Part shown: piece after piece, positions 29,812 through 48,447 of the stretch
Numbering within the stretch: position 1 is the stretch's first letter
How the letters are laid out: each line of letters starts with the position of its first letter
Source of the DNA: a virus
Strand: one strand, 5' to 3'
IMG/VR virus record: IMGVR_UViG_3300036820_000008
Span: 30,580-94,579 of that record
Length of the DNA: 64,000 nt
Program-made: the position numbers and the translations under genes
Notes under the pieces: generated by a model
The model's input: the letters and a program-made list of their open reading frames with translations, nothing else
Database searches by the model: none
Told to the model about the DNA's origin: nothing

Positions 29812-30690
29812 ATGACCGAGACATCAGGGGATAAGGCAGAGCGCAGGTCCGGCGAGTACGGCGAGTACGGCGAGTACCGTTCATATGAGCAGGTGTTCAG
29901 CGATGTTGGTGAGCGGATTAGGGCGGACTTCCCGGCGACCGCGGCTTTCCCAGAGATCATGGAGCGCCTACGGGTCGAGATGGCGAACGCTGAGTGGAAG
30001 ATGCAGTGTGCATACAACCACGATACGGTAACCCCCGACAGCTGTAAGGACGGCATCCTGGCCATTTACTGGTATGAGGCGCAGAACAACGGCAAGGGGA
30101 GTACGGGTGCCAGAAAGGATGGCCAGCGGGATAGACCGGATATTCCTATCACAAGAGATGGCGCACCGATCGGACGTGACTTTATTGTCACCACGATCAC
30201 CCGCAAGGAGGCGCGAGAGCTGGCCCACCAGATCCTCTATGCGATAGGGGATCCCGTCCCTCTTCGTGTCAGCGATACCGGCGACGTGTATACGGCAGGC
30301 ATGGTGACAGCAAGCCAGACAGGCATGGTGTCGCCAGATCCGTCTGGCTTGCTGTATTCGTTCTCCGATCCTCCGGTTAAGATCGTTGACGCTCCGTCTG
30401 GCATGCGGCCGGGGTATCAGGGCGATATCGAGGTCGACACCAGACAGAAATTGTCTAGGGCCGAGGCAGAGGATCTCCTGGCTAGTGCTGAGGCCGATGA
30501 TTCGGGCGGCGGCATATGCCGTGGGGCGGGCCTGTCTGGGGCCGAGAAGGACGCAGATGCAGGTCAGCATAGCATGTCTCTGTCAGAGTCCGTCCAGGCC
30601 CGGGTTACTCGAGACAGAGAGGATCGCGCCACCCTCGCACAGCGTCGTCAGCTGGCCCGTATCGAGGGCCGTCCAGAGCCGAGGTACTGA
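29812..30690 (+). CDS. Hypothetical protein, 292 aa, leaderless
   Basis: TATAAT, six bases, then ATG; no ribosome binding site. Near the N-terminus GEYGEYGEY is coded by a 9-base tandem repeat. Residues about 25-80 (SYEQVFSDVGERIRADFPAT, CAYNHDTV) match the upstream paralogue. The C-terminal half is Ser/Asp/Glu-rich and probably disordered, ending in a basic helix. No enzyme motif recognised. Confidence 0.72.
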   Translation: MTETSGDKAERRSGEYGEYGEYRSYEQVFSDVGERIRADFPATAAFPEIMERLRVEMANAEWKMQCAYNHDTVTPDSCKDGILAIYWYEAQNNGKGSTGARKDGQRDRPDIPITRDGAPIGRDFIVTTITRKEARELAHQILYAIGDPVPLRVSDTGDVYTAGMVTASQTGMVSPDPSGLLYSFSDPPVKIVDAPSGMRPGYQGDIEVDTRQKLSRAEAEDLLASAEADDSGGGICRGAGLSGAEKDADAGQHSMSLSESVQARVTRDREDRATLAQRRQLARIEGRPEPRY

Positions 30691-46305: not shown

Positions 46306-46638
46306 ATGTGGGATTGTAAGCACTGTGGGTCCAGGATGATCGCAGGCACGCTTGTCGTGTGCCCACAGTGCCGCAAGGCAAGGTCTCCGGGTTCTGCGGA
46401 AACTGAGCCATCGGAAGCGGTAGGGGAAGGATCCGCAGAAGCCGTAGGCTCCGAAATAAGCCCCTCGGCCGACGCTACCCCTACCGCTACCCCCGCGACG
46501 CCCGAAACCGGCCTAGGCTCGGAGCTCCCACCGGACGCCAAGGGATTTACCCCGCCCTCGGCCGGGCCGTCGGAGGCGGATCCGTCTGCCGGAGGCTTTC
46601 TCACGAAAGGATGGGGTGAGTTACATGCCCCGCGTTAG
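46306..46638 (+). CDS. Zinc-ribbon protein with disordered tail, 110 aa
   Basis: N-terminal CKHCGSRMIAGTLVVCPQC is a rubredoxin-like zinc ribbon. Residues 28-90 are Ser/Pro/Glu/Ala-rich and probably disordered, ending in a short GGFLTKGWGELHAP motif. Function unknown; overlaps the next gene by 14 bases. Confidence 0.72.
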   Translation: MWDCKHCGSRMIAGTLVVCPQCRKARSPGSAETEPSEAVGEGSAEAVGSEISPSADATPTATPATPETGLGSELPPDAKGFTPPSAGPSEADPSAGGFLTKGWGELHAPR

Positions 46639-47248
46639 TTCAATCGGTGCCTCGAATGCTGACTTGGCAAGAGAGGCGCTCCGCAGAAAGTGGGGTGTGC
46701 CATCAGCTGGTATCAGCTCCTCGACATCCGCAAGACGGCCCGTACGGAGTGGCTCCAATCGCCGGGCAACGGTGCGACAGACCCGATCGCCTGCCCCCGC
46801 TGTGGAGAGCCCCTCCGCAACGGACCAACCAGCCAGTCAAGCCCCGTCCTCTACTGCACCTTCGACGGATGGCAGTACCCAAGAGACTGGACAAGACCCA
46901 GTCCCCCAACAGGTCTCTTCGGAGGCATCAGCTCCAGCGACTCCAGTTACACCGGATACTACTGAGCCGCCGGCAAGCATTCCTTCGCCCAAGTCACCGC
47001 CCGAGCCAGCTCCGGCTAAGACACAGAAGAAGGCGACTCTGACAACGACACCTTCTGACGAGGCCAAGCCGGTTGCGACAGACGCCAGTACTGCACTACA
47101 TCTGGCTCGCGAGGCTTTCGACATCGGCGATTATGACGCCGCTGAAGAGCTGCTGAACGAGGCCGCTGCCGACAAGTCGCTAGCCCCGATGATTGGGGCT
47201 GCCAGATCTGACATAGCAAGGAAGCGCGCGCAGGCAAAGGCGAAGTAA
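46625..47248 (+). CDS. Low-complexity protein with helical ends, 207 aa
   Basis: Starts M-P-R-V-S (a GTG three codons earlier is also possible). The first 24 residues (IGASNADLAREALRRKWG) and the last 55 (LHLAREAFDIGDYDAAEELL) are ordered and helical, the latter TPR-like. Residues 25-140 are Ser/Pro/Thr/Ala-rich. That middle part is read in another frame by the nested zinc-ribbon gene, and its odd composition may be a result of that overlap. Function unknown. Confidence 0.65.
   Translation: MPRVSSIGASNADLAREALRRKWGVPSAGISSSTSARRPVRSGSNRRATVRQTRSPAPAVESPSATDQPASQAPSSTAPSTDGSTQETGQDPVPQQVSSEASAPATPVTPDTTEPPASIPSPKSPPEPAPAKTQKKATLTTTPSDEAKPVATDASTALHLAREAFDIGDYDAAEELLNEAAADKSLAPMIGAARSDIARKRAQAKAK
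46690..46965 (+). CDS. Nested zinc-ribbon protein, 91 aa, in another frame
   Basis: The frame from the GTG at 46690 reads ISWYQLLDIRKTARTEWL and then IACPRCGEPLRNG ... LYCTFDGWQYP. I recall this ISWYQLL ... CP-x-x-GEPLR ... FDGW pattern as a conserved small actinophage head-region protein. It lies wholly inside the 207-aa gene, shifted by one base. No good ribosome binding site precedes the GTG, so initiation could depend on coupling or frameshifting from the outer frame. Conservation of the pattern makes coding likely. Confidence 0.65.
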   Translation: MGCAISWYQLLDIRKTARTEWLQSPGNGATDPIACPRCGEPLRNGPTSQSSPVLYCTFDGWQYPRDWTRPSPPTGLFGGISSSDSSYTGYY

Positions 47249-47328: not shown

Positions 47329-48447
47329 ATGGCATCGACGATATACCGTCCGTGCTACGCCACGCGCGAAGAGGTGATGCGCGCGCTGGACATCAAGGCT
47401 GCCGCGTATTCATCGCAGCAGGTAGATCGCAAGATCAATGCTGCATCAGACGCCGTCGACGCCATGTGCCAGCGTGTGTTCTTTCCTACGGACGGGACTA
47501 ACAGGTGGGACTGGCCAAACTACCAGTATACGTACCCTTGGAAGCTTTACTTTGATCAGCTTGAAATGGCTGCCCAGCCGACGCTTGTCGTGACAGGATC
47601 GCTGCTGGAAGTTCCTGTGGTGATCCCGTCCGGCAATTACATCATGGAGCCTGTCAACGAAGGTCCTCCCTTCACATGGATAGAGCTGCGCCGAGATCTC
47701 AACTCTGCCTTTGGAAGTAATGATACTCCTCAGCTTGACATAGCTATAACCGGAACTTTCGGATACTGGACGAAGACCACTCCAGTAGGCATGATCGCTG
47801 CCGCGATAGCCGATGATGTTGTGACGACTGTACAGATGTCTGCAGGCCCGCTAGCCGGAGCAGGTACCGGCGACGTCCTGATTGTTGATGCCGAGCGGAT
47901 GCTCGTTACTGACTCGCAGTATGTGTCTACGGGCATAACTCCGATATCAGGATGTACGTCCAAGTCTGCTGCCGACAACACTATGGTTGTTGCAGACGGA
48001 ACACAATTCAGCCCAGACGAGATTATTCTCTATGACTCCGAGCTGATGCTTGTCCAGACAGTAATGGGCAATAATCTGATCGTCAAGAGGGCATGGAGCG
48101 GATCAGCTCTTGCTACACATAGCGGATCTGATCTTTGGGCCAATAGGCTGCTGACCGTTCAACGGGGCGCTCTTGGGACCACGGCAACGTCACACACTAG
48201 CGACACTAATGCATATATCAGTACTGTGCCAGGATTGGTAAAGGACGTCGCGATAGCCACCGCTCTGACCGGCGTCGCGAATGAGCCCGCCGCGTACGCG
48301 GTTCAGATGGCCGCTAGCTGGTATGGCAGCAACCCAAGGCTTGAGGGGTCGCAGCGAGAGTCGGCTCCTGGCATTGGTCTGCCAGGCCTTGTTGCTCAGC
48401 TCACGGACAGCATTTATGTCCGCAAGGCCCGGAGCCGGGTGATATGA
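47329..48447 (+). CDS. Head-tail connector/adaptor protein, 372 aa
   Basis: N-terminal 60 residues (TREEVMRALDIKAAAYSSQQVDRKINAASDAV shortened here to its TREEVMRALDI start) resemble head-completion adaptors. The middle holds two similar modules with GDVLIVDAERMLV and DEIILYDSELMLV, each about 60 residues. The C-terminal MAASWYGSNPRLEGSQRE looks like the usual adaptor end. Longer than normal gp6/gp15-like adaptors because of the inserted modules. AAGGGAC precedes the ATG. Call is inferred from pattern and position. Confidence 0.68.
   Translation: MASTIYRPCYATREEVMRALDIKAAAYSSQQVDRKINAASDAVDAMCQRVFFPTDGTNRWDWPNYQYTYPWKLYFDQLEMAAQPTLVVTGSLLEVPVVIPSGNYIMEPVNEGPPFTWIELRRDLNSAFGSNDTPQLDIAITGTFGYWTKTTPVGMIAAAIADDVVTTVQMSAGPLAGAGTGDVLIVDAERMLVTDSQYVSTGITPISGCTSKSAADNTMVVADGTQFSPDEIILYDSELMLVQTVMGNNLIVKRAWSGSALATHSGSDLWANRLLTVQRGALGTTATSHTSDTNAYISTVPGLVKDVAIATALTGVANEPAAYAVQMAASWYGSNPRLEGSQRESAPGIGLPGLVAQLTDSIYVRKARSRVI

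Follow-up and report, generated by a model that had tools for sequence, protein, structure and literature searches.

A ribbon-like phage gene nested in a second open gene appears to start at AUC or ACG

In a 64,000-nucleotide stretch of viral DNA (IMG/VR record IMGVR_UViG_3300036820_000008, positions 30,580 to 94,579; hereafter the window) and in more than 100 relatives, a small gene nested within another open gene appears, from sequence comparison, to start at AUC and sometimes at ACG. We consider it highly probable that two overlapping genes are both translated here, the inner one being initiated at AUC/ACG, probably under gating by IF3. In the proposed arrangement, the outer gene would start at ATG 46625 and be read across the entire inner gene in the +1 frame, while ribosomes recruited within it by a strong Shine-Dalgarno (SD) sequence would initiate at AUC 46702, or at ACG in some relatives, with the initiator tRNA.

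The nested pair sits in a virion-head module, and all features described here lie on the + strand. The outer gene (46625..47248) is an open frame of 207 aa, running from ATG 46625 to a stop at 47246-47248, with a conserved N-terminus (MPR.S..G.SNAD) whose loose pattern matches 121/129 ATC/ACG loci. As originally predicted, a frame at 46690-46965 is open inside it in another phase. The inner gene is delimited here as 46702..46965, comprising 87 codons plus a stop at 46963-46965, on the basis of its conservation and its start column across 196 representatives, together with an ATG at the same column in the isolated Streptomyces phage Dagobah, where the inner homologue HUN42_00015 is annotated as a gene of its own. 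Begun at ATC 46702-46704, the proposed product would read fMet-SWYQLLDIRK...ACPRCGEPL...YCTFDGWQYPRDW. Within the putative dual-coding overlap (46702..46965), the outer frame corresponds to the inner frame +1 and is rich in Ser, Thr and Pro. The frame offset and inner codon usage suggest that this composition is largely dictated by the inner gene, because inner third positions, often C, are outer second positions, and NCN codons specify S, P, T or A. On the 5' side, a gene of the same module (46306..46638) encodes an N-terminal CxxC..CxxC ribbon followed by a low-complexity tail and shares 14 nt with the start of the outer gene. On the 3' side, a head-tail adaptor-like gene (47329..48447; phrog_442, E 5.5e-4) provides a synteny anchor, sharing 37% identity at 93% coverage with Dagobah HUN42_00016, which follows the inner-gene homologue in that phage. 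In Streptomyces prophages (e.g. L093, L099, L102, L106, L108, L117), a second small ribbon gene (CxxC...CPxC) was regularly observed 5' of the outer gene.

The first scan returned 13 close viral relatives, and the layout recurs in 12 of them (L001-L012) and on many independent contigs; an assembly error or indel near 46685, the caveat attached to the original prediction, is therefore excluded. Wider viral scans yielded 359, 526 and 522 relatives, the best 80 of each being taken, and bacterial genomes contributed 24 relatives, mainly from Streptomyces, plus matches in 9/295 Streptomyces genomes. The inner frame has hundreds of relatives among actinobacterial phages and prophages. Usable placement was obtained for 290 of the 291 records, and merging near-copies left 196 representatives. 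One locus, L226, has ACG at the start column and ATG two codons upstream; it is included in the sets of 129 ATC/ACG loci (SD energy and outer openness), scored as non-AUG in the tree, and excluded from the 128-locus sets (slippery-motif scan, SD codon choice and start-column codons). In the phage and plasmid collections, the single phage homologue of the inner protein was that of Dagobah, no homologue was found in the plasmid collection searched, and neither the window's own inner protein nor the outer-type query gave a match.

At the start column, the 196 representatives carry ATC (121), ATG (26), GTG (16), ACG (7) or TTG (2), the ordinary codons ATG, GTG and TTG together accounting for 44/196; in the remainder, ATC lies five codons earlier (2) or an ordinary start lies upstream (22). 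No ATG, GTG or TTG follows the last in-frame stop in 107/128 ATC/ACG representatives. Where Val, Thr or Leu would be read at column 1, the codon is GTG, ACG or TTG in 28/36 cases. At most other columns the share of these codons is far smaller, for instance 3/181 at column 6 and 2/119 at column 7, columns 8 (8/16) and 9 (11/32) being less clear-cut. Judged by codon usage, this choice of start-type codons marks the column as a start and not as an internal codon of a fusion.

Pairing with the anti-SD at ≤ -6 kcal/mol was found at 129/129 ATC/ACG loci (median -12.7), each thus having a ribosome-binding site at the proper distance, against a background of 17% among 5,348 other ATC triplets within 1.5 kb. 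The family's ordinary starts, which form a mixed and more divergent control set than the ATC/ACG loci, reached this threshold in 66% of 44 cases and paired more weakly (median -7.2). In the window, the SD-like stretch of the inner gene, recognised by its duplex energy, lies within the outer gene at 46690..46699. The outer codons spanning this signal are strongly skewed: Gly at -11 in the outer frame is written GGT in 48/72 cases vs 64/488 in the background, and at -2 the outer codon has A as its third base in 128/128 loci, vs 90/1,386 S/V/P/T codons elsewhere. In two relatives with extra residues after the start (L107 and L153), it is nevertheless ATC, and not Trp, that stays at the SD (dG -16.5 and -11.6). 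The codon skew indicates that selection acts on the nucleotides of the SD upstream of ATC/ACG. Directly after the inner start, a short inverted repeat, AGCTG....CAGCT, was spotted by eye at inner codons 2-6 (46705-46718 in the window, and in many relatives), and could form a small hairpin.

The outer frame continues past the start column in 121/121 ATC loci vs 11 of the 44 loci with ordinary starts, the others showing an exact NTGA stop-start overlap (16) or being otherwise closed (17). Five of the 11 open ordinary-start loci (L160, L179, L230, L266, L272) resemble chance arginine-rich frames, whereas in L116 an outer gene is recognisable, with a GTG start. In 21 representatives the outer frame runs beyond the inner stop, and in this C-terminal part the differences at codon positions 1/2/3 are.24/.24/.44 (22 pairs, 21 loci). 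For the window, AF2 modelling of 46967-47245 placed helices at residues 40-52, 56-66 and 70-92, in a block with pLDDT 81-95; this predicted TPR-like, three-helix C-terminus of the outer protein (47084..47242), 3' of the inner stop, also gave weak Pfam TPR matches (E 0.17-0.82). Within the overlap, the slowing of third positions was modest, and its comparison between ATC and ordinary-start loci, drawn from few control pairs, lent weak support. Separately, a SAP domain (PF02037) was observed at the C-terminus of outer genes ending at the inner start in two relatives (L092, E 2.5e-9; L115, E 1.8e-15).

The arrangement in the window would be ordinary if the inner gene began at GTG 46690 (MGCAISWYQ...), the start given in the original prediction. 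This codon is in frame, four codons upstream of ATC 46702, and has a weak SD (-7.9 kcal/mol), but it falls within the SD-like stretch of ATC 46702, which pairs more strongly (-15.4 kcal/mol). Moreover, an ordinary start within 12 codons occurs in just 8/128 ATC/ACG representatives, the window included; four ACG relatives (L033, L045, L049, L050) also have an alternative GTG start upstream. GTG 46690 was discarded as a non-conserved start, the conserved column being ATC 46702, and a start there appears very unlikely; on comparative grounds, the inner gene most probably starts at ATC 46702. Another account would hold that the inner gene alone is functional and that outer read-through is a chance result of inner codon bias. 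Codon resampling indeed gives a mean chance of 76% that the +1 frame is open, but over 128 of the 129 loci it predicts 96.7 open frames where 116 were observed. Furthermore, the outer phase is free of stops across the whole inner gene at 117/129 ATC/ACG loci vs 15/33 controls, namely relatives in which the outer frame terminates no later than the inner start (p 7e-8), and the helical C-terminal part past the inner stop evolves as a coding sequence, so that read-through by chance is scarcely credible. Both frames appear translated, because outer openness exceeds that of controls and of resampled sequences, and because the outer C-terminal part evolves as coding and is predicted to be helical. 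By these comparisons, the pair represents same-strand nested overlapping genes with both frames under selection; with the inner frame conserved in hundreds of loci, the evidence favours joint translation, one of the two options originally put forward.

The other option was a frameshift joining the outer N-terminus to the inner domain, in which a programmed -1 shift near the ATC would generate the fusion and the outer-only product would be the non-shifted form. In its favour, frameshifting can be stimulated by SD-like elements, every ATC locus (121/121) has an outer frame that stays open as far as the column, and some Z_ZZN tetramer occurs in the wider permitted interval at 46/128 loci, where a weak shift is conceivable. 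However, an X_XXZ_ZZN heptamer is present at 1/128 loci, and at 75/128 the inner frame is closed by a stop no more than 5 codons upstream, 69 of these 75 having neither Z_ZZN nor X_XXZ_ZZN and 6 having such a motif. The slippery motif is termed mandatory for -1 frameshifting (PMC4066793), and the motif scan led us to reject a -1 shift as the main route, the slippery site being absent in 69/75 tightly bounded loci. A frameshift would also leave unexplained the start-type codons at the column, the travelling ATC in L107 and L153, and the separate ATG gene in Dagobah. Because slippery motifs are mostly absent and start-type codons occupy the column, frameshifting is the weaker reading compared with two genes, and we regard it as unlikely.

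If two genes are translated, they likely originated from an adjacent pair with an ATGA/GTGA stop-start overlap. Outer genes end in NTGA at ordinary starts and are open at all ATC loci, so one change would open the outer gene and make the start AUC; a substitution such as ATGA to ATCA would remove the outer stop and create the AUC start in one step. A one-base change of this kind was probably the actual evolutionary path. Homologues with one frame open, which the original prediction would have held against it, do exist as a minority (e.g. L013, L057-L071, L092, L115); rather than refuting the overlap, they point to the origin of the nesting, because several of them have an outer gene that terminates at the start codon of the inner one. 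In a short, unrooted tree based on 64 columns, L233 (ATG, stop) and L250 (ATC, open) share a supported branch (98), and a further group (96) unites L043, L053 and L094, all ATC and open, with L057, L059, L064, L068 and L071, which have GTG or TTG and a closed frame or a stop. Start type and outer state agree in 3.7 of 4 supported independent pairs (p 0.125). The family informs how overlapping genes can arise through one base change in a stop-start overlap.

The zinc ribbon attributed to the inner protein is degenerate: one CP..G knuckle and two invariant Cys were recovered, but not the two CxxC knuckles of a zinc ribbon. Across 82 aligned relatives, the only invariant residues are the two Cys of CP..G.PL...C, the second CPxC Cys being often replaced by Asp. 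The AF2 model consists of a helix and a small ribbon-like part (mean pLDDT 77.7), with no PDB match at E ≤ 0.001 in Foldseek. Profile searches against the PDB returned a designed zinc-finger protein (3.8e-8), with no stretch passing alone, and zinc-ribbon-like matches such as L37Ae (E 4e-4), and among the curated families of Pfam, PHROGs and NCBIfam matches were sub-threshold at most. Its position among head genes suggests that the inner protein may serve the virion or virion assembly.

IF3 would be expected to discriminate against near-cognate starts such as these, so that the small inner protein is likely to be made at a low dose compared with the outer one, and in an IF3-sensitive manner. 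In Streptomyces, the start codon of infC is ATC, and initiation at the GTC of sigR is repressed by IF3 (PMC5472188); it is because of these precedents that the inner gene is proposed to be held at a low, IF3-sensitive level. More tentatively, and with considerable doubt on our part, the AUC/ACG start may have been retained in the actinophage lineage as a translational rheostat, in which IF3, itself encoded in Streptomyces hosts by a gene that begins with AUC, would set the ratio of inner to outer dose and so tie virion assembly to host initiation-factor status.

Non-AUG starts and nested genes are each already known. The inner gene resembles infC and sigR in its non-canonical start in Actinobacteria, infC having the same ATC codon, but these are host genes, not described there as nested (PMC5472188), whereas the phage gene is nested and exchanges ATC/ACG with ATG/GTG/TTG among relatives. 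ORF3a of poleroviruses and luteoviruses, which starts at ACG in TuYV, is likewise a non-AUG start in a viral ORF that is small and conserved, and was discovered by comparative analysis (PMC4422679); it is translated by eukaryotic ribosomes in plant RNA viruses and has no homology to the inner gene, for which an SD-driven start within an open phage gene is proposed. The hidden HNH endonuclease in phage methylases (PMC11855218) is also an out-of-frame gene inside an open phage gene, but it is a homing element with a GTG start, and its protein is unrelated to that of the inner gene. Dagobah HUN42_00015, the homologue occupying the same place before the head-tail gene, has an ordinary ATG and is not nested, its 4-nt ATGA overlap being with an upstream gene unlike the outer gene. 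Searches of the open-licence literature on non-canonical initiation in phages and bacteria yielded, among the matches listed, neither a phage gene starting at AUC/ACG nor a nested phage gene in which such a start is shared across a family. Gene finders limited to ATG/GTG/TTG would miss the inner protein in exactly those phages where it is nested. Experiments have characterised very few non-canonical starts (PMC5472188), and more than 100 natural AUC starts and some ACG starts, with close relatives using AUG/GUG/UUG at the same codon, constitute a ready-made natural experiment bearing on why and how AUC is used and on IF3 discrimination in Actinobacteria.

A further observation concerns the C-termini of proteins encoded in this region. 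A GGF tail pattern, itself too narrow, matched 2 ORFs of the window and 95 other loci of the 291 records. A GPSEADPSAGGFL-like tail is encoded close to the 3' end of the upstream ribbon gene in the window (46306-46638) and ends the outer genes of L008, L010, L026, L033, L039, L045, L049-L052 and L060; it is perhaps a portable tag, involved in capsid binding or packaging.
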